The position numbers were made by a program, and so were the translations under genes. From Brachionus koreanus (taxonomy: Eukaryota; Rotifera; Eurotatoria; Ploima; Brachionidae), in NCBI GenBank assembly GCA_016987375.1, contig PJRA01000272.1, positions 1,361,102-1,425,101 of the forward strand: a DNA stretch of 64,000 nt, given 5' to 3'. The notes under the pieces are model-generated. The model saw only the letters and a list, made by a program, of their open reading frames with translations. It was not told where the DNA came from and did not search any database. Positions 5,700 to 52,000 of the stretch are shown here, in pieces; positions within the stretch are counted from its first letter, which is position 1, and every line of letters begins with the position of its first letter.

Positions 5700-7088
5700 A
5701 TGGAAGCTTTGTCGATGGCAAAAAGATTCCGAAATAATGAAAATTCCGAGTACAATCAAACAATTCAAACAATGAAAGAAAAAAATTATAAAGACGAAAA
5801 GATACTGGCCAACAACAATCAACCCAAGTATATAGATACTAAGCGCCTACTGAGTCGCCCATCAACGACCTCACATGTTTACGGTCCGAATATAAGCTCC
5901 AAAAATTCCAAGTCAAGTCCCAATGTGCTATACAGCAAGCTGTTAATGCATCATTCCAAAAACAATGAAAAAAAGTCTTCTGTAAATGTTTCTAATGTGA
6001 GCATCACCAACCAGAGTAGCCAAACAGCGGCCGATTCAGTGATAAAGCAGTCTGGCTTAAATTTGGTCAATGGATCTAACCAATCTAGCTTGAATAGCGA
6101 CGTTTTTGTTGATAGACTTAGTGATCAAAGAATATTCAATAGACAATTTAAAATTCAGAATTTAATTGACAACACGGGTAACAAATCGGCTAGGACAGTG
6201 GGAAGTGCTGTTCAAAGTTATCAAAATAAATCCAAACAACAGTTCTATAATCAGAACAGACCTAGAAATTCCATTCCAAGCTCGGCTCAGCCTAAGAGCA
6301 AAAAAGATGATACAACGAATTATTCAAATCAGGCATATAGACATTCTATTTCTTCTAATAAAAACACTGACTATCAATCAAATTCAATTTATATGGATTA
6401 CAAGTCAAGAAAAACAGCCAATTCATCTAGTGTCTATTACAATTTAGCTAGTGCACGCAATCCGGTTGCTTTGAACGACGAAGGAAAAAATATTCGAAAT
6501 AGCGCAATGACTCGAAAATTTGTGGGTTTTAATTTAAATGAAAATTCAAGTTTAAATCAAAAGCATAAAAATCAATTTGAGGACAATGTTTATGTAAGAA
6601 GTACCGAAAGTTTTAATGATATATACTTTTCGGCGCCAAGTGGCGTTTTCTATGAACAAAAGCCTGTTGAAAAAGTTGAAATAAGACAAAAGTTTGAGTT
6701 TAATGATGCCAGGAACAGTTCACCCTTGCCAACAGAATCACCTGCAATTGTTAATCTGTTACTCAATAATCAAAACAAGTTATACGAGTCTACTAAGCTT
6801 ATTTATGAGAACAAAAAGTATCCAAGTAGCAAATTTGGACTAAGGATGAATGAAACGATTGGAGAAGGAGATGAGAAAAATGACGAACAATTTGAAAAGC
6901 AAAAAAAAGGAAGCAGGGACAATGAGAGAAGTTTAGATAAATGTACCGATGATTACGATCCAAATGAAAGTGCTATAATTGCTGCTGTTTACAAAAAGTG
7001 CAACGAGTGGCTGGAAAAGCATGTTATTCCAAATTTAGAATCACATTCTAATACATCTAGTCCATCGTTAAATGAAACAATTAATTAA
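5700..7088 (+). CDS. Intronless Asn/Ser/Lys-rich protein of unknown function, 462 residues
   Basis: I do not recognise this protein. It is one uninterrupted exon. The start follows a decoy ATG at 5687 that stops after two codons. Most of the chain is Asn, Ser, Lys and Gln rich, hydrophilic and probably disordered, with no signal peptide or membrane segment. The only part that looks folded is the C-terminal stretch around residues 415-450 (ESAIIAAVYKKCNEWLEKHV), which could form an amphipathic helix. Tyr-containing short motifs recur (SNSIYMDY, NQAYRHS). It has no introns, unlike every other multi-domain gene here, so it may be a fast-evolving lineage gene or a retrocopy. Codon use looks like that of its neighbours. 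A regulatory or cytoskeletal adaptor is possible, but nothing proves it. Confidence 0.65.
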   Translation: MEALSMAKRFRNNENSEYNQTIQTMKEKNYKDEKILANNNQPKYIDTKRLLSRPSTTSHVYGPNISSKNSKSSPNVLYSKLLMHHSKNNEKKSSVNVSNVSITNQSSQTAADSVIKQSGLNLVNGSNQSSLNSDVFVDRLSDQRIFNRQFKIQNLIDNTGNKSARTVGSAVQSYQNKSKQQFYNQNRPRNSIPSSAQPKSKKDDTTNYSNQAYRHSISSNKNTDYQSNSIYMDYKSRKTANSSSVYYNLASARNPVALNDEGKNIRNSAMTRKFVGFNLNENSSLNQKHKNQFEDNVYVRSTESFNDIYFSAPSGVFYEQKPVEKVEIRQKFEFNDARNSSPLPTESPAIVNLLLNNQNKLYESTKLIYENKKYPSSKFGLRMNETIGEGDEKNDEQFEKQKKGSRDNERSLDKCTDDYDPNESAIIAAVYKKCNEWLEKHVIPNLESHSNTSSPSLNETIN

Positions 7089-20099: not shown

Positions 20100-23000
20100 A
20101 TGAGACTTACCGAAAGAGAAATAGATTGTCTTTTAATTCACAATGCAGGTTTTTTAGCTCAAAAAAGATTAGCCAGAGGTTTGCAACTAAATTATCCAGA
20201 ATCAGTTGCTTTAATATCTGCTCAAGTAAAGCCTCTTTCGGCTTTTATTTCTTAATTAAATTTGTCAAATATCATTTAGATCTTAGAATTTGCTAGAGAT
20301 GGAAATTCCATTGATGAAGTTAGCGAAAAAGCTAAACAAATTATCGGTAGAAAAATGGTTCAGAGTGGTGTAAGCAAAATACTTAGAGAGCTATCTGTAT
20401 ATGCGACATTTTCTGATGGTCTAAAGAATGTAATTCCTCTCCTTTCATGATTGGATAAATTTTAAGAGTCTTTAATTTATTTAGGTATTCATTGAAAACC
20501 CTATTTGTACTGAATATGGAAATATTCAACTTGCTTTATTCGGAAGTCATTTGCCCATACCTGATTTATTCAGCAATCCAGAATCAAAAAATGAAACAGA
20601 TATTCAAATGATGGATGAAAATTCAGAGTTAAATACAGATGAAGTATATCCTGGTCAGATAATTCCATTCAAGTCAGATAATATGCCAAAAGAAAGCTTA
20701 GATGAGGGTGAAATAGACGAAAATCAAAACATGAATGAAGATGACGAAGTTCTAACAGACTATATTGAGATTAATAAAAATAAAGGACAAGTATCGCTAT
20801 TGAGTGTAACTAATCCAAGCAATGAAAAAATTAAAGTATTTTTTTTAATATTCTATTGATAAATAAATATCAATTTTTTTATTAGATTGGTAGTCATTTT
20901 AATCTGATTGAAGCCAATAAAGCTTTATTATTTGATCGGTCAATTGCTTTCGGAAAAAGACTGGTATCAATGATGTTTTTAGTCTTTCTAAGTTTTAATT
21001 TTATATTTTAAGAATATACCATCTGGTGATTGGATCGAATTTGAACCTAAGAGTACAAAGATTGTTCCTATAGTAAGAATAGCAGGCTTAAAGTGAGAAA
21101 ATTTGATTGTTGTAATTTCAAAATTAAATATTATATTCTTTTAGAATTATTAAAGGTGGTAATTTCCTGGTCGATGGCAAACTAAACGATGATTTACTCA
21201 AAAAGACGCTTAAAAAATTAAATAAAAAATCATTTTTGCATAAACACCAAGAGGTATTTTCAAGTTTACATTCAGATCTTATAATCTATAAAATTTTGCA
21301 AATAATTATATTTTTGAATCTTCTTTTCTTTATATCAGATATGCCTTTCATCTTTTGATAATAATGGATAAAAATCAAATTCTAGCAAAGAGGTTGTGGA
21401 TTGTTAGCTATATACAATGAGCTTATTTTTTTCCCAGCATTAAAGTGTGTTAAAATTGTTCCTTGTGTATTTGAAAATTTTCTCTTAGTCAATCTATGTG
21501 TGGGTCAAGTTGTTGATTTGAACTAAAAAAAAATAAAAATTAAGGATAAAGTCATGGATTAGTCTTCTATGAATATATAATAAAAAAATAATTGATAATC
21601 GAAATTGATATCAAAATTAGAATTGTTAAAATATATACTTTTAGATATTTTCATTTTGAAAATCTAAGTTTAGCTACAGCCAATCTTATTAGTTTCAGTT
21701 TAAATCCGAATTAACAAATTAAGCCAAAAAAATACTTTCAAAAAATGACTATTTTAAATTAATGATTCTCAATTTAATTTATCAAAATTAATAATTTATT
21801 TGATATTTTATTATAAATAGTTTTTTCAATTATTTGTTTATTTTTCTTATAATAACTGCACGCTTCTGAAATAAGTCAACATTTTGTTTAACGCTAGAAT
21901 TCAATCAATGAGTTTTATTTCTTTCTTCTAAGGAAAGAAATTATAAACCCAAACGCTGTGAAGAGAAAATGAAAAAAAAATTTCTATTATTTAGCACATT
22001 TTTATTTTTAATAGGAAAGAATTCGATCTAGAGAAATTTATGACAAAAATTTAGTAACTCAAAGATTACTTTAAAATTTTCAAATAGGGAAATTGATTAA
22101 TTTAGATGTTTCTTTGGTAATTTAATTATTTGGAGTTTATTCTTTCTTAAATTTTATTCTGAAAATATTTAAAATTTACATTAATCTTTTTGAAAAAAAA
22201 TTTAACACAAAAAAAAATATAATTGATATATTCTTAAACCTAATTTTAATCTTGTCCAAAGGAAATAATATTCAACGATGAAAATAAAAAAATAATTGAA
22301 AAATATTCGAAAATACCGAGAGATATTTATATAAAAAAATATGGACCAACAAGAGGCGATAAAGTAAATTTTTAAAGAATTTATTTTACAAAATTTTTTA
22401 AAATTTTTTATGTACCAGATCAAATTGGCAGACACTAATTTAATTATTGAACTGGAAAAAGATTTCACTATTTATGGTGACGAATTAACTTTTGGAATCG
22501 GAAAAGTATCAATTTAATTTTAATAAATTTATCTATTTTCTAATGGAATTTTTTTTTAAAGAATTTAAGAGAAGGCCTAGCACAAAGTATTAGTATGAGA
22601 AATGATGTTGCCCTGGATTCTGTAATTACTAACGTTGTGGTAGTTGATAGTGTGTCTGGTATTTTCAAAGCAGATATTGGAATCAAGGATGGAATGATTC
22701 AAGGAGTTGGCAAAGCTGGTAATCCTCACACTATGGACATTACTGCTGGAATGGTAGTTGGTGCAGGAACTGATGTAATCTGTGGTGAAGGATTAATTGT
22801 TACCGCTGGTGCTATTGACATTGGATCATCATTTTTTCAATCAAAATCAAACATTTTGTCGGCTCTAGGTTCTGGTATTACTACTATATTTGGTAAAAAA
22901 ATCTATTATTTGAATGAAAAAAATTTATTAATTTTTTTTAAAGGTGGAGGAACCGGATCTTTTGGGAGCTCGTCAACAAACTGTACACCAGGCCCAAATA

Positions 23001-24289
23001 ATATCAAATACATGATTCAAAGCACTGATGAAATTCCTCTTAACTTTGGGTTTTACGCAAAATCAAACAGCTCATCGTCAAAATCAAACGAGTCTTCTTC
23101 ATTTGATTTACCAAAAGAAATCGAGGATCAATTAGTTTCAGGCGCTATGGGTTTGAGGCTTAGCGAGTTTTATGGTGCAACACCAGCTGCAATTGATTCA
23201 TGTCTAAGGGTTGCCGATTTTCATGACGTAACAGCCATTTTGGACATTGATAGCCTGCATGAAACTTACGGAAATGACTATCTCATTAGTTTGATAAAAA
23301 ATCGAGTGGCTGGAGTCGCATTTAATCCTAGTCTTTTCAAGTCTGATTTCTTAAATGAGATTTTAACTCAGATTAACATGATTGGAATATCAGCTTTGAA
23401 TGAATCAGAAAATATAAATTTAGAAAAATATTTTCACGATTTGGGCCTGATAAGTATGGTTTCTTCATCATCATTTGCTCCAAGCAATCGATCTAAGGTA
23501 AAATTATCATTTAGTTTTTTTACTTAGTTTTTTAAAAGATTTTATTAAACCTAGTCAAATATTGAAAATTTAATTAATAAAACTTGGCAAGTAGCTAGTT
23601 ACATGAAAAAAATGGAAAAAATGAATCCGAGAAACGATAATCAAAGAGTGAAACGCTATTTGGCAAAATATACCATTAATCCAGCTGTGTTTAGTGGTTG
23701 CTCTCATGCAGTTGGTAGCATTGAAGTAAATAAAATGGCTGATTTAGTTCTGTGGAGGCCTGAATTTTTTGGTACAAGACCAGAAATTGTAATTAAAGGT
23801 GGTCAAATTGTTACTTCGGAATTAAATAGTTTAGAACGAACAAATCAAGTATTGGGCGTTTGCGGGAAGAGTCCTTGTGCAAATTCAGTTGTTTTCATTT
23901 CAAAAGTTAACCAGTAATTTGTCATGTTTGTTTTTTATAATTCTTGATTTAAGGCTTCTTATGAAATTGGAGCTACAAATACATACGGAATCAGCAAACA
24001 TGTGGAACCTATAAGAGATTGTCGCAGTCTAAATCGAATTCAGCACATGTACCCACCTAACTTTTGTCCAAGAATTAGTTGTAAATCATTTGATTGATAA
24101 GTTTCAGGTAAAAAAAATAAAATTTTTTAAAAAATAGATTCGAGTGCCCATTCCAAAGGAATTTTGAATTATATTGAACATGATACTCAACAAAGCAAGC
24201 AACTTCTACCTCTAAAGCCAGAGATCAAGTCATCTATAGAAAACATTAAAACAACTCAATTTCTCAGTCAAAGGTTTTATCTGTTTTAG
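20100..24289 (+). CDS. Fused gamma-beta-alpha urease homologue lacking all active-site residues (pseudoenzyme)
   Basis: Full-length single-chain urease as in plants and animals, 864 residues (jack bean about 840), from 13 exons: 20100-20225, 20280-20429, 20485-20835, 20886-20963, 21013-21092, 21145-21253, 22262-22363, 22419-22505, 22562-22892, 22944-23497, 23555-23905, 23954-24077, 24138-24289. Every phase fits. The gamma part has [15 protein letters not shown], beta has [14 protein letters not shown], and alpha has [41 protein letters not shown] and the terminal FLSQRFYLF. The nickel site is gone. The two His of the HxH motif are Gly449 and Ser451, the carbamylated Lys is Arg543, the later His ligands are Asp572 and Asn599, and the Asp ligand is Ser647. 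The His next to the Lys is Ser545. About 40 residues of the flap with its catalytic His and Cys are deleted. All these changes lie inside continuous exons, so splicing cannot restore them. It cannot be an active urease. The conserved fold and open frame suggest a structural or binding role. Confidence 0.9.
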
Positions 24290-29401: not shown

Positions 29402-30983
29402 ATGTTTTTTAAAATATTACTATTAGTAATTGTCTTTACAACAGCTCATTCACATTTGATCGAAAGTCCTCTAGGTGAAGAGGATGTATGCAATTTTCAA
29501 GATCGCAGGCTAGCAGAGTCGGTCAGACTCGTTAGATCAAAATACAATTGTCGAGTCTACTATGTATGTGCCTTTTACAAGCAGTATTCTCTTATTTGTG
29601 CCGAAGGTCTTTACTTCGACCAAGATTCAAATTCTTGTAATTATCAAGAAATAGTAAAATGCAAATTAGCTTCGGATGACTTGACATTGCAAGAAAATTC
29701 AATTTACCAACTTGAAAAAAATCAAGATTCTTTGAATCAAAGCAATCAAACCGAAATCGAATTGCCCGATTTTTATTTTAATCAAACTAATTTTGTAGCC
29801 AACGAAACGGACGATATTTATTCAACAACAAATTTTAATGAAATGATGAATAATTTGACTGATGTGGACTTTATAAATGAAACAAATTTGACGTCAATTG
29901 AATCAGAAAAAATCAATACAACTCCATTACAAACAACATCCACTTCTATCATTCAAACTCAAACACTTGCTGATTTAAATAACTGGTGGCATGGTCCAAG
30001 TGACTGCATTCAAGGATTTAAACATAGAATAGCTCATAAAAATAATTGTGCATTATATTATGAATGTACTGAAAAAGGTGACAAAATCATTAAATCATGT
30101 CCATATCCTTTACAGTATGACGAAATGCTTAATGAATGCAGATTTTATGATTTGATTGAATGTGGCACTAGAAAACAAGCCAAAGATTTATGTAATATTT
30201 ACAAAAAAATATAAAATATTATTTTGATTTAAAAAAATATAAATCTTAGGTGATTATCAAACAAATACTTCAATTCCAAGTTCAATTCCTTGCAATAGAT
30301 ATCCAAGCTGTAAGGGTTTAAGTGATGGCCTTTATCCATCAAATGATTGCAAACATTACTTTCAATGTAAAGATGAAAGAACACTAAGGATTTACAGTTG
30401 CCCTAGGGACAAAAAAACAGGCACTCAATTAAAGTTTAATTATCTAACAAAAAGATGTGATTTTCTCGAAAATGTGTCTTTCAACTGCGGAGGATCTGCT
30501 ATTCCGATAGATATATACAGTAATCTTGTTCATGATATGATAAGTATTATATATAAATTTTATTAAAATTAAGCAAACAAAATGGCATGCCCAAGTAAAC
30601 AGAAAATGGAAGATGAACAGCTTAGTTTGGAGATTCGTGATGTTTATTTTTCTCATCCAAGTGAATGTCATTTGTATGTTACATGCGATAATCAAGGAAA
30701 TATGTCAATTTTAGAATGTTTTAATGGTACTCATTTTTCACCGCATTATCAAAGCTGTGTTCATCCATCAGTTGTCAACTGTAAAAAATTTCCAATGGTC
30801 AAAGTTCAAAAAATATTTTCTTTAAAGAAACTCTTTGTTGAACCGAAAATAAAATTGGGATTTATTAATAAAACATCTGAAATGTTGTTTTACACAGGGC
30901 CAGTTCTAACAACACCATCAGTCAAACTAAATACTACTATAGATATGGAATCAAGCAATAATTCTAATTCAACTTTATTCTAA
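29402..30983 (+). CDS. Secreted protein with four chitin-binding type-2 (peritrophin-A/CBM14) domains
   Basis: Three exons (29402-30191, 30250-30519, 30574-30983) encode 489 residues. A signal peptide covers about residues 1-17 (MFFKILLLVIVFTTAHS). Four six-cysteine CBM14-like modules follow, with the usual aromatic next to the third cysteine (CRVYYVC, CALYYEC, CKHYFQC, CHLYVTC). Between modules 1 and 2 lies a Thr/Asn-rich linker with many NxS/T sequons (NQT, NET, NLT), likely heavily glycosylated. No enzyme domain is present. The C-terminal tail is Ser/Asn-rich with no clear membrane anchor. Such proteins bind chitin in cuticle, jaw, gut lining or egg shell; which one here is not shown. Modules 1-2 sit on exon 1, module 3 on exon 2 and module 4 on exon 3. 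A reading without splicing would stop at 30214. Confidence 0.87.
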
Positions 30984-46020: not shown

Positions 46021-49000
46021 ATGTTGTTTCACAACAAGGCTTGCTACACACAAACTAAGTTAATTTCTTATCTGTTTTCAATAATAATTACATGTTCAGC
46101 TCTACCTACTGAAGCCATAATTGAATCAATTTATTTATATAAGAATAGTACAACGAAATACTTGGATAGTTCAAAGCTCGAATTTTGTAAACAATGTGAT
46201 ATATTTCTTGGTGGTTTATTTCCTATACATGGACCTAAATACGCTCGTCATTCGAAAAAAAACCCTGATGATGCATTTAGCAAATATTCTGAATCTCTTA
46301 ACTATGTTTCGACTACGCCAACAATATCCGTTGAAAATTTTATGCACAGTGAGTTTATCTGTGGAGAGATTAAAAAAGAACGTGGTATTCAGCGTTTGGA
46401 AGCCATGCTATTTGCAATTGATCTAATTAATAATAGTACAAATCTTTTACCAAATTTAAAGCTAGGCGCTCGTATTTTTGACACTTGTGACCGTGACACA
46501 ATTGCCATGGAGAAATCTCTTAATTTTGTAAGCGACTACTTTTTGTTGAAAGAGGAAAATATTGTAGATGATTTTACTTGTATGAGCAACAATCCAAGCA
46601 TGATAGATTTTGCAGACAATTTTAAGCCAATAAAGAACAAGGACGCAATACACAAGAGAAAAGTTGTTGGTGTAATCGGAGCAGCGAGTAGCAGTGTATC
46701 GATTCAGGTGGCAAATTTGCTAAGATTATTTCAGGTAGGTTAAAGTGCAAGGAAAAAGAAGTTGTATAATGAAGCTATTTAATTTTTAGGTTCCCCAAAT
46801 AAGTTACGCATCTACAAGTCCTGAGCTAAGTAATAAGGAAAGATTTCCATTTTTTTCTCGGGTATTGCCTTCAGACACATTACAAGCAGAAGCAATGGCT
46901 AATTTGGTTCATTCGTTAAATTGGAACTATATAGCAACTTTAAACGAGGAAGGAAATCTTGGTGGAATCGACTCATTTATTTCAAATGCCAAATCTAAAA
47001 GTTCTCTATCGAAATATCAAATTAAAAATTTTTCAAATTATTTCATTCTAATTTTAAGATATATGCATTTCGGGATCATATACTTTATCTCAAACAGCTT
47101 CTGAAGACGATGTAAAAGCTATTCTTATTGAAATGTATGAGCAAAAAAATGCTAGAGGAGTTATTGTTTTTCTTCAAGATCACAATGTGAGGTATAAAAA
47201 TTTTAAAATTTTTATTTTAAATTTTGTCCTTATTTTCTTTTATCACCGTAAAATAGAGCATTTAAAAAAAATTATTTATTTCATAAAACCAATAAGTCAC
47301 ACTAATGATTCTCGTTTTAAAAACGAAAAATTTGATCAATATCAGATAAAAACCAAAGCCAGTTAATTGACCCACATGATTAGAAACAGGCTGGGAAAAT
47401 TAATTGTCATAAATTCAGAATTTTATCCTGAACAATTTGAATAAATGAATATCCTTCTTTGGTAAACTGAAAGCTACTCAAGATAACGCTAGACCGCATA
47501 GAGCTAGAAGACCATTGCTGCTTGAGCGTATCTTGATGTTTCGGACATGGTTCTGATATTCTAGGTTCCGATTCTACATCTGTGTTTGGCAGTAAATACC
47601 CACTTTTCTACTTGTAACCTCCACGAAGGTTTTCAGTCTCAAGCATCATGACTGGCGTTGTTTTGTCCTTTTGGATGTTACCACTACTCCATTGATTTCC
47701 TCTCTTCTTTCCTGACGTATACAGCTAGAAGAACAATGGGAAAAATAAAAAAGCTTGAAGGGATCAAACTTCTTTCTCATTAAGCATGTAGCCCAGATCT
47801 TTTTCCTTTTAAATATCATATTTTTCGCTAAATGGCTCATTTAACGACATTTAACTTAGATAAAATTGAAGAAGGGTATCGTGAGTTTTTTGGTTCCAAA
47901 GGCTATCAATGGTACTAGAAAAGAATCGAATTTCTTGTTGAAAGATGGCTAAAAACTTTATAATATTATCGTTTATCCTTTGAAAATTAGCTAACTATTG
48001 CTTTTTTTCTATTGATAAATCAAAAAAAGTGAAAAAAAATATTTTGCTTCTCCTTAATATTTAGAGTTTAATTGATAAAAATTTTATCGGCAACATGAAG
48101 TATAGTACGATTGTACTGTACGATTCCAGTACTATTCGTGATGAAAAAGCTAACGATTCAACACATACTTTTTTTATATACCTACCCTGAGAACAGCTTA
48201 AGAAAAAAATTTTAGACCCTCTTAAAATTTAAAAAAAAAAAAACAGTCTTGCTTGAATTCAAAAATATAATATAATATAAGTTAAATTTTTTTTTCCTTC
48301 AGTACGATTATGTTTTTGAATAAATTAATTAATTCTGAGAAAAAAAAATATTTTTTATTTTTTTATTATAATTACTTTGAATAGTAAAAATTTGTACGAT
48401 TCAAGGGTTATCAAAAATTTGGTACAAAAAATATTGTACATTGTGTACAAACTTCTATTTTAGCAAAATAACCAATCGTACTAGTAGTTTATTAAAAAAA
48501 AGAAAAAAAACTTCAGCCTCTATATTTGAAACATGAGGGCTCATCAGAATAAAAATTTTTCATTCTACCAAAAAAAAAACTTCATGTACACTCAAAAATT
48601 TGTACATAAATTTGTACATCCGGTGTAAAAAACTCAGCCTGGAAATTAATTTCTAACCCAATAATACAATATTACAATCGTACTAAACTTCATGTTGCCA
48701 ATTTTATCAATGATCTTTTGATCTTAATAAACATTTTTCTTCATTTTTCTCTGAAATAATGGTAGCATAATGGTCTATGTATTATAACTTGAGCTTGTGT
48801 ATTCTTGGTGAAATTAACACAATTAAATATTAAATTAATTAACACTTGGGAATTTAAAGCTTATTTTTCAAATAACAGTAGATTTTTTTTATTTAAAAAA
48901 TAGCTAAATAAAAGCTTAAAATGTTTTCTGAAAACTAAAGAGTTTTTTTAAAGGAAATTACTTAAGCTGGTTAAAGACTTGAATATGACAAGACATTTCT

Positions 49001-52000
49001 TATGGATTGCAAGCGACAGCTGGGGTACCAAAATAGAATCAATTCGAAATAACAATTTAGCAGCCGAAGGAGCGATTACTTTTTCACCCAAATCCTTTAT
49101 AATAAAAGAATTTAGCGAATATTTCCAAAAGTTGAAACCAGGCAAGAACATCAGAAATCCATGGTTCGAAGAGTTTTGGCAAGATGAGTTTAAATGTCGC
49201 ATCGAAAATCCAATATTTAAGCCAAATCGTCGCTCATCGTACAAAAAATTGTGCACCGGTCATGAAACACTTAGTTTTACTCAAGATGGTTTCATTCATT
49301 TTGTAATTGATAGTGTATTTGCGATTGCGCATGCTATTCAAGATTTAGTAGCCATTCATTGTTCCAATCTAAATTTAAAAGATTTAATTCAATGTCAGCA
49401 CAAGATAATTTTTAAGGGACCAGAATTTCTCAAAGCGATTAGAAATGTAAATTTTAAATCTATCACAGGACGACAAGTCGAGTTTCTAAAAGACAAAGAC
49501 AATTCAGGAGATGGTTTGGCACCTTTTGAAGTTTTTCAGTATCAAAAAGATGAAAAGGGAGAGTTCGGTTACAAAAAAATAACCGAATGGGAAAAAAATA
49601 AACCATTTGTTTTAGACAAATCAATTTTAAAATGGAATAGTGATAGTGATACGATACCGCGTTCAGTTTGTAAAGAAGAATGTGGAAATGGAGAAGTTAA
49701 ACAAGGCGACCATTGTTGCTGGGTTTGTGTAAAATGTGAAGAAAATCAATATGTTGACATGAACAAGTGTATTAAATGTCCTCAAGGCTTTGGTCCTAAT
49801 GAAAACAAGACTAATTGTGTTAAGTTACCAGTTGAATACATGACATTTAATAGCCCGTTTACTTTGATACCAATTATATTTTCCACCCTTGGCATAATCT
49901 TAACAACTCTAATTATTTACATTTTTATTAGGTTTATTTATTTTTTATTTAAAATCACCAATTACTTAATACATTTTTTTCAGATATAACGAAACTCCAA
50001 TAATAAAAGCATCAGGAAGGGAACTTTGCTATGTTTTATTAGCTGGAATCCTTGCAAGCTATCTGGTCACATTTCCTTTAGGTAAATTTTTCATTTCAAA
50101 ATACTTTAAATTATTTTTTTGGATTAATAAAACTAATCTATTTTTAAATAAAATAAACTGGTTAAATAAAATTTTAGTTTTTAGGGAATAATTAAAATAT
50201 TTTCTGGATAAAGGGTTAAGCTGAAAATTCAAAATCTTCCAAAGAAATAACTTAATATTTTTTTTTTAAATTTTTCATTAAATTATTATATTAAAACGGT
50301 TTTAAAAACCGTTGTTTAAATGAAATTTTTGGTTTTAAAAAACGATCAGTTATTAAACTAAACCTGTGCTTATAATGGTTTAATAAAAAAGAATTTCATG
50401 CTTACAAAAATTCGGCAAATTGAAGTTTATGATCAAATTAAAATGATTATGCTCAGTAGTTATCATTTAAAAAATTTCTTAAAAATTTGTAAAAAAAATT
50501 ATATTTGAGCATGATCATAAACTTCAATATGTCAAAAATTCTTCGAAGAAAATAATGCGGCTGGTGTAGATTATTAACTAGATACAAAAACCTTTGTGTT
50601 TTATTGAAGCTATCTCTCAGAAAACTACGGGAAAGTACTAGAAGATGAGCCCTTCACCAATAATCCTTCCCAAATAATATTCTATTTAATTAGTAATGGG
50701 AGTAACAAACTTTAAAAACTATACATCAAACTTTAAAAATCGATTTTCTAGAAATGAGGCTAAAAAAACTATTTATCAAATTCGTTTTGTCAAAAGACCA
50801 AGATGACCTGATCACAAACAACCTTCAAAACTACGCAACAAACCCAACTCATAAATTCAAAACACCTTTTGATAACTTTTTAGATTTTGAACAAGACTAA
50901 ACTTTTTCTCATCTTTTATTAATCTGTAAATAAGTTTATGTAGAAAAATTTTTATTTAATTGTATTATTCATTTTTATAATCGCATGCGGGTTGAAAAGA
51001 AGGTTTTAGACCATTCTGAACTTCCCAAGGGTCACGGCCCTTAAACTATTATTTAAATAAAAAAAATAAATAAAAAATTGTAATGGGAGTAATGTCATCC
51101 GAAAGAGTTAAACTATGCAATAGAAATGACAATAATCTTTATTTTAATTGATCATGCTCAAAGAATTCAACGATTAAAATAATCTTATTTGTGTTTTTCA
51201 AAATTTAAACACAAGTTTTAGATTAAAGTAAAAATTATTTTATTTATATTTTAGTTACAAAACCAAATTTGATCTCATGCTTGCTTCTTCGTTTTGGTTT
51301 TAGCACTAGCTTGACAATTTGTTTATCAGCTCTTTTCACCAAAACAAACAGATTATCAAGAATATTCAATAATAGCATAAAACAAGTCCGACAAGCAAGC
51401 TATGTAAGTCCAAAATCTCAATTAGTCATTTGTGGATCTATTGTATCAATCCAAGTTGTAGCTATATTTGTTTGGATTTCAATCAGGTAGAAGAAAAATT
51501 TAAATTATAAGAAATTTAGGATAAAATTTTTTGTCTAGTCCACCAGGTACAAGTTTTGATTATGATGATCCAAAAAGAGTGATTCTTCAATGCAAAACTC
51601 AAAATACTCATCTAGCCATATCATTTTTGTATAATTTTTTTCTTGTTATCCTTTGTACAATATACGCGATTAAAACTCGAAAAATTCCTGAAAATTTTAA
51701 CGAAGCCCGTTTCATTGGTTTCACTATGTACTCAATTTGTATTATTTGGGTCGCATTTATACCAATTTATTTTGGTACTACCGCAGCAGCTGGTACTAGT
51801 AAATCTCCAAAAAACAATTACAAAGTAAGTTTTGATTGAAACTGAATTAATATAACTAAATTTTTTATAAATTATTAAATTAGATACAACTAACAACAAT
51901 GGCTATGTGCTTGAGTTTAAGTGCAACGGTGATTCTTTTTTGTCTTTTTTTGCCCAAAATTCGAGTTGTTCTTTTAAAGCCTAACAAAAATGTTCGTGCC

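Follow-up and report, generated by a model that had tools for sequence, protein, structure and literature searches.

Single-chain ureases (EC 3.5.1.5) are known from jack bean (structures 3la4 and 7kns), Priapulus, molluscs and corals, and it is with these proteins that the gene described here has to be compared. The gene lies in a stretch of 64,000 nucleotides from the rotifer Brachionus koreanus (assembly GCA_016987375.1, contig PJRA01000272.1, positions 1,361,102 to 1,425,101 of the forward strand), which we call the window, and its product has the same gamma-beta-alpha order as these ureases and aligns with them over its full length. It differs from them in that it has none of the six nickel ligands, lacks His492 and His593, has a flap segment of 46 residues instead of 85, and is encoded in a genome in which no UreD, UreF or UreG was detected. 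In our view it belongs to an ancient family of nickel-free pseudo-ureases in Syndermata, non-enzymatic and comparable in kind to the CRMP proteins, and we would give this reading a probability of about 0.78.

To our knowledge, no pseudoenzyme of the urease family has been described. An earlier note on this DNA, made from the sequence alone, knew of no animal pseudo-urease, and the open-licence literature (with no preprints and few subscription papers) likewise gave us no description of one, nor of an inactive rotifer urease. The accessible part of PMC3073912 finds urease in few metazoan genomes as of 2011, and the urease passage in the available extract of PMC7248198 concerns Helicobacter pylori. 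A likeness can be drawn with the CRMP/DPYSL proteins, which belong to the same amidohydrolase superfamily and have lost the parent activity. In particular, CRMP-4 is reported, in the portion of PMC4051505 that is available, to keep two of the six metal-binding residues, with the carboxylated lysine replaced and no dihydropyrimidinase (DHPase) activity, while the barrel is kept. The CRMPs nevertheless resemble dihydropyrimidinase and lack both the gamma and the beta domain, and their neuronal roles are not implied for the pseudo-urease. In a fold search with the window protein, CRMP-5 and CRMP-2 come out among the low-ranked matches, and the protein is a urease, not a descendant of dihydropyrimidinase, by its domains, by its sequence and by a tree composed of ureases only. 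The iron urease UreA2B2 of Helicobacter mustelae has the usual urease ligands. It matches the window protein in both sequence and structure (3qga), with iron instead of nickel; it contains metal, whereas all six ligands are missing from the rotifer protein.

The sequence at 20100-24289 is a single gene on the forward strand, composed of 13 exons and 12 introns, all of which are GT-AG. Its spliced frame of 2598 nucleotides encodes 865 residues without any internal stop, so the consistent 13-exon urease frame proposed earlier stands, with its 864 codons corrected to 865 residues. The guanine plus cytosine (G+C) content is 0.34 in the exons and 0.19 in the introns. Eleven of the 12 introns are 48-57 bp long, while intron 6, at 1008 bp, is about 20 times longer; a repeat scan of this intron and of the gene surroundings gave AT-rich, weak, chance-like matches only. 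Pfam-A recognizes Urease_gamma (PF00547, 6.6e-31), Urease_beta (PF00699, 5.2e-24), the N-terminal domain of Urease_alpha (PF00449, 1.2e-45) and Amidohydro_1 (PF01979, 3.7e-21), all above the cut-off, so that all the expected domains, gamma, beta, alpha and the amidohydrolase barrel, follow each other in the urease order. Jack bean urease is the top match among solved structures (expect value 1e-170). The parts of the gene are the following, all on the forward strand.

20100..24289, forward strand: pseudo-urease gene, a gamma-beta-alpha fusion of 865 residues (gene model, Pfam, B. plicatilis orthologue P0001).
20100..20429, forward strand: exons 1-2 (20100-20225, 20280-20429), gamma domain (Pfam Urease_gamma, residues 1-99; 23/27 invariant columns kept).
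20485..20835, forward strand: exon 3, running from the last part of gamma through the gamma-beta linker, where an acidic insert lies, into the first part of beta (alignment A1).
20886..21253, forward strand: exons 4-6 (20886-20963, 21013-21092, 21145-21253), beta domain and linker (Pfam Urease_beta, residues 184-274).
21254..22261, forward strand: intron 6, 1008 bp (gene model).
22262..22892, forward strand: exons 7-9 (22262-22363, 22419-22505, 22562-22892), alpha N-terminal domain and start of the barrel (Pfam Urease_alpha, residues 315-434).
22823..22831, forward strand: codons Gly449-Ser451, of which 449 and 451 replace the ligands His407 and His409 (alignment columns).
22944..23497, forward strand: exon 10, most of the barrel including the lost active site (gene model, alignment A1, column conservation).
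23156..23164, forward strand: codons from Arg543 (carbamylated Lys490) to Ser545 (His492) (alignment columns).
23243..23245, forward strand: codon Asp572, which replaces the ligand His519 (alignment columns).
23303..23440, forward strand: residues 592-637, the shortened segment of His545 and the flap His593, 46 vs 85 residues (alignment).
23468..23470, forward strand: codon Ser647, which replaces the ligand Asp633 (alignment columns).
23555..24289, forward strand: exons 11-13 (23555-23905, 23954-24080, 24138-24289), end of the barrel and C-terminal part, ending in RFYLF (gene model, alignment A1).

A catalytic urease holds its nickel through six ligands, four histidines, a carbamylated lysine and an aspartate, and none of them is found in the window gene or in any of its nine relatives described below. 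The positions were mapped through the plant urease, in jack bean numbering: H407, H409, K490, H519 and D633 correspond to G449, S451, R543, D572 and S647 of the window protein, and the substrate-binding H492 to S545, as the earlier note had listed. The sixth ligand, H545, falls in a part of uncertain alignment, where it faces F in one alignment and a gap in another, so the N599 given for it in that note is one candidate only; there is in any case no His in residues 592-635. What had been overlooked is the shortening of the flap segment, which spans residues 592-637, from Arg592 to the HD motif, and counts 46 residues against 85 in ureases. His593, the catalytic histidine of the mobile flap, is thereby removed as well, since its column is a gap in the window protein; the claim of ligand loss was otherwise borne out. 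As a dinickel centre could not be bound, the window protein is almost certainly not a urease, an inactivity that we infer from the sequence, and no urease mechanism known to us would be possible without the metal site and with so little of the flap left.

This loss is shared by a whole family. Two protein searches, of which we kept the best 120 of 7956 and the best 120 of 7884 matches, gave 166 distinct proteins, which make with the window gene an alignment of 167 rows, 10 of them syndermatan and 157 other. The ten comprise five monogonont-type sequences (the window gene, P0001 from Brachionus plicatilis, and P0002-P0004, which group with Brachionus in the tree), four bdelloid ones (Didymodactylos carnosus, Adineta ricciae, Adineta vaga and Rotaria socialis) and one acanthocephalan (Pomphorhynchus laevis). 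All ten, the window gene and the nine found, keep 0/6 ligands, while in 156 of the 157 non-syndermatan rows none of the 8 catalytic residues checked is missing. The exception, P0094 from Papaver bracteatum, keeps 5/6 ligands; we read this as an oddity of the gene model, and the row was excluded from the catalytic set of 156 rows in the column-conservation and fixed-residue counts. The flap segment tells the same story, with 40-56 residues in the ten syndermatans (29-45 short of 85) and exactly 85 in 156 of the 157 others, a plant model, P0065, being the exception with 55 residues. The former active-site residues themselves vary among monogononts, bdelloids and the acanthocephalan: H407 has become G, A or C, H409 has become S, C, N or Y, and H492 has become S or D. 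The intact pseudo-urease that was first noticed in one gene is thus borne out and extended to ten syndermatan sequences, in which the flap is lost as well.

Among the matches listed, the closest to the window protein is the "urease isoform X1" of Brachionus plicatilis (P0001), with 86% identity over 98% of the length, or 84.8% across 862 aligned positions, and the bdelloids are 79-90% identical to A. ricciae. Identity with the animal and plant single-chain ureases is 43-46% (alignment A1), and none of the 157 non-syndermatan rows aligned exceeds 52% with any of the ten. No ligand-bearing protein named as syndermatan was present among the 166 proteins, that is, among the best 120 of each search. 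A region search with residues 385-620 of the acanthocephalan protein returned only this protein itself among 3192 candidates, and a profile search with the nine syndermatans brought no new member within the best 120 of 7884 matches, where 8 of its 9 query rows were listed; as P0001, one of its own query rows, was absent from them, this search loses true members through its candidate limit and others may be missed. The databases call four of the six named syndermatan entries "urease" and the two others hypothetical proteins. In the part available of a 2025 paper (PMC12274423), rotifer-like nickel "ureases/hydrogenases" of acanthocephalans are read as nickel-binding, and a urease-driven detoxification of ammonia is suggested. 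For the urease gene, the syndermatan sequences argue against this reading as it appears in that part of the paper, whose own sequences were not matched to these. Two side observations concern the monogonont-type members: the gamma-beta insert, acidic and probably disordered, is present in all five of them and absent in the four bdelloids and the acanthocephalan, and the last 50 or so residues of P0001 do not resemble the C-termini of the other members, probably through a gene-model error.

The family very probably goes back to one ancient origin. In a tree of 39 rows chosen from the 167, the ten syndermatans form one clade with a Shimodaira-Hasegawa-like approximate likelihood ratio test (SH-aLRT) support of 100. 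When the tree is rooted on plants, this clade falls among the animal ureases and contains bdelloid, monogonont-type and acanthocephalan sublineages; the branching order of the animal groups is poorly supported (84-94, with several forks drawn open), and the 39-row tree does not fix the sister group. Support remains at 100/99 in a tree of 41 chosen rows built without residues 440-665, in which any attraction between the ten rows through their active site is excluded. Syndermatan branches are longer than those of the catalytic ureases in the 39-row tree, and the acanthocephalan one is long in both (2.24 with 39 rows and 1.37 with 41). The shortened flap common to all ten speaks for one event, as judged from these sequences, though the lengths that remain differ.

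We then come to what has been maintained. We call invariant the 293 columns in which at least 97% of the 156 catalytic rows have one residue. Of these, 182 (62%) are kept by the window gene and 141 by every one of the nine rotifer rows. In the window gene, the kept columns are 23/27 in gamma, 22/31 in beta, 44/49 in residues 276-446 (mainly alphaN), 25/36 in 447-541 and 40/61 in the C-terminal part, falling to 7/16 around K490-H519, 3/8 around D633 and 11/57 (19%) in the H545/flap region, where 20 of the 57 are in gaps. All 8 catalytic residues are among the 111 of 293 columns lost (hypergeometric P 3.6e-4, a guide only since neighbouring columns are not independent). The comparison of lineages gives the same picture: of 11 regions, those around the former H545, the flap and D633 have the lowest identity between monogononts and bdelloids (0.27-0.28), whereas they are the most conserved among the seven catalytic rows compared (0.86-0.91). 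Constraint is shifted from the active site to the scaffold.

An intact frame can also be set against neutral drift. Coding sequences drifted by substitutions alone to 84.8% protein identity, under two base compositions and in 300 runs each, acquired on average 7.3 or 10.3 stops, with no stop-free run out of 300 in either setting, while the real gene has none. We are close to certain that the pseudo-urease is maintained by selection: catalytic residues are lost and the frame is intact and selected, as in a pseudoenzyme, and the intact frame, the scaffold conservation and the family of ten support the kept, probably non-catalytic function that the note had thought likely. P0002-P0004 each have an open frame (863-894 residues) on a contig of 2741-2986 bases, where twelve introns of the kind seen in the window gene would not fit, and therefore look like spliced mRNA; this suggests that they are assembled transcripts from other monogononts, with an RNA source.

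New residues have also become fixed. Eleven are identical in the nine rotifer rows and found in less than 5% of the 156 catalytic rows, and five are identical in all ten syndermatans by the same standard, including K529, which lies in a column that is mostly gap in the catalytic rows. The same count gives 0 for ten molluscs and 0 for nine panarthropods, control groups that we chose ourselves, with one row without taxon name (P0113) and with shorter stems than Syndermata. In particular, Arg543, Asp572 and Ser455 are present in 9/9 rotifer rows, where the 156 catalytic rows all have Lys, His and Cys, respectively. That an Arg and an Asp are fixed where ureases have the carbamylated Lys and a His ligand suggests a salt bridge, and we see an even chance that an Arg543-Asp572 bridge braces the empty pocket in rotifers. 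The acanthocephalan has Ile and Cys at these two sites, both members of the pair being absent together. A structure model was good only when 36 of the 45 alignment rows were catalytic ureases. From nine syndermatan rows alone (alignment A2, led by P0006 of Adineta ricciae) it reached a predicted local distance difference test score (pLDDT) of 43 and a predicted template modelling score (pTM) of 0.28, and since this model is poor we do not claim the fold as predicted independently of catalytic ureases.

The rest of the genome was examined for the partners that a working urease would have. In the assembly (83,257,189 bases in 92 contigs), an exon-level search found no second urease gene, all urease matches being exons of the window gene. 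UreG gave no match with PF02492 (5 candidates scored) or TIGR00101 (1 candidate), profiles that did match in the control genomes (13 and 6 out of 14, prokaryotes throughout), and UreD (PF01774) and UreF (PF01730) gave none either, in an exon-by-exon search of limited sensitivity for intron-split, less conserved genes. This sensitivity can be gauged on the rotifer genome itself, where the gamma family (99 positions), itself split by introns, was recovered as two pieces and the beta family (98 positions over four exons) was matched over 27 positions only (4.9e-5). A well-conserved UreG would probably be seen; a divergent UreD or UreF might be missed. The active urease with UreD, UreF and UreG that the earlier note proposed to look for elsewhere in the genome was accordingly not found at the level of this profile search. 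As a side observation, the PF02492 result means that the cobW domain had no match in the genome (5 candidates scored). Such a match would also have covered the ZNG1/CBWD type, which is usual in animals. Uricase was not found by the profile search; allantoicase had no match in the genome and none in the control genomes either, and hence allows no inference. The arginase family is present at two loci.

G000:C45:44376-45356: arginase locus L009, covering 16-277 of the 280 profile positions in roughly 1 kb.
G000:C1:2542592-2542939: arginase locus L010, arginase-family match.

In the window itself, nine of the ten other open frames compared with Pfam match ordinary families and one matches none; NSUN5-like exons lie just downstream of the pseudo-urease gene.

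5700-7088: open frame of 462 residues without Pfam match.
29402-30214: open frame that matches the chitin-binding peritrophin-A domain in two stretches, just downstream of the NSUN5-like exons (Pfam).
46021-49989: two large open frames with ANF_receptor, the second also with NCD3G, as in class C G-protein-coupled receptors (Pfam).

Several other explanations can be confronted with these data. The loss of every catalytic residue, and branches longer than those of the catalytic ureases, could be taken as signs of a recent or decaying pseudogene or of an assembly artefact, but such an origin has almost no probability left. Against the pseudogene stand the intact frame, the canonical splice sites, the contrast in G+C between exons and introns, the absence of any stop-free drift run (0/300 in either setting) and the shared loss, and we reject it; an assembly error is very unlikely because nine other sequences show the same loss. 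The idea of the earlier note that the protein might serve an active paralogue as partner or regulator is in keeping with a theme frequent among pseudoenzymes generally. Yet one urease gene was found, and neither a second one nor UreD, UreF or UreG was detected in the 83 Mb assembly (an exon-level search, in an assembly whose completeness is not given), so that this idea is rejected and appears very improbable. Membrane-active or defence-like effects have been reported for some plant and bacterial ureases, and a role of this kind needs no nickel. The membrane-active peptide of plant urease is located in the beta-alpha linker, which is here among the least conserved parts (0.30 between monogononts and bdelloids). 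A protection against oxidants through methionines has a precedent in the catalytically inactive urease of H. pylori mutants, according to the part of PMC12915409 that is available, which shows that such a protein can be useful without catalysis. The ten sequences have, however, 15-23 Met per 793-903 residues, which is not strikingly high, and we regard the retention of any such older urease role as improbable.

The most serious rival is that of a new enzyme, in which the flap-less, open pocket would perform some other chemistry, metal-free or differently metallated, or would bind a new small ligand. The rotifer residues Arg543, Asp572 and Ser455, invariant where catalytic ureases are invariant for others, are what such a function would lead one to expect, and identity over residues 542-575 reaches 97% among the four bdelloids and 58% between monogononts and bdelloids, the third highest value of the 11 regions. 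The positions of H407, H409 and H492 nevertheless differ among monogononts, bdelloids and the acanthocephalan, and the H545, flap and D633 regions are the least conserved of the 11, so that we hold this rival to be unlikely. Two published observations temper our confidence in the preferred explanation. The accessible part of PMC4051505 cites a histone deacetylase activity of CRMP-3, a reported case of a related pseudoenzyme with a different chemistry, and in a bacterial urease single Ala mutants of three ligands kept 45-76% of the activity, as stated in the available section of PMC11705952. As described there, these mutants concern one ligand each, whereas the window protein has lost six.

We therefore return to the nickel-free, non-enzymatic pseudo-urease of Syndermata. 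In the stem lineage of this group, the six nickel ligands of an ordinary animal urease would have disappeared, along with its catalytic histidines and the greater part of the flap, while purifying selection would afterwards have retained all three domains, gamma, beta and alpha. The protein would most likely do a non-enzymatic job, as a scaffold or binding protein that folds and probably forms multimers, and, by analogy, we lean somewhat towards the multimeric scaffold. Oligomerization and such a role would fit what is kept, namely the conservation of gamma, of alpha-N and of the end of the barrel. In rotifers, the Arg543/Asp572 pair would have taken the place of the metal site, its salt bridge bracing the empty pocket. 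The whole sequence of events, in which the rotifer-acanthocephalan ancestor abandoned the use of nickel in urease, the activity and the maturation genes being gone, while the protein became a scaffold kept in all sampled groups, with the Arg-Asp pair in rotifers, is a tentative proposal to which we give slightly less than even odds.

If true, this would be the conversion of an enzyme into a pseudoenzyme at the scale of a phylum. The pseudo-urease family poses a testable question, that of the role of a urease unable to split urea, and Brachionus, a culturable rotifer, is an organism in which this question could be answered.

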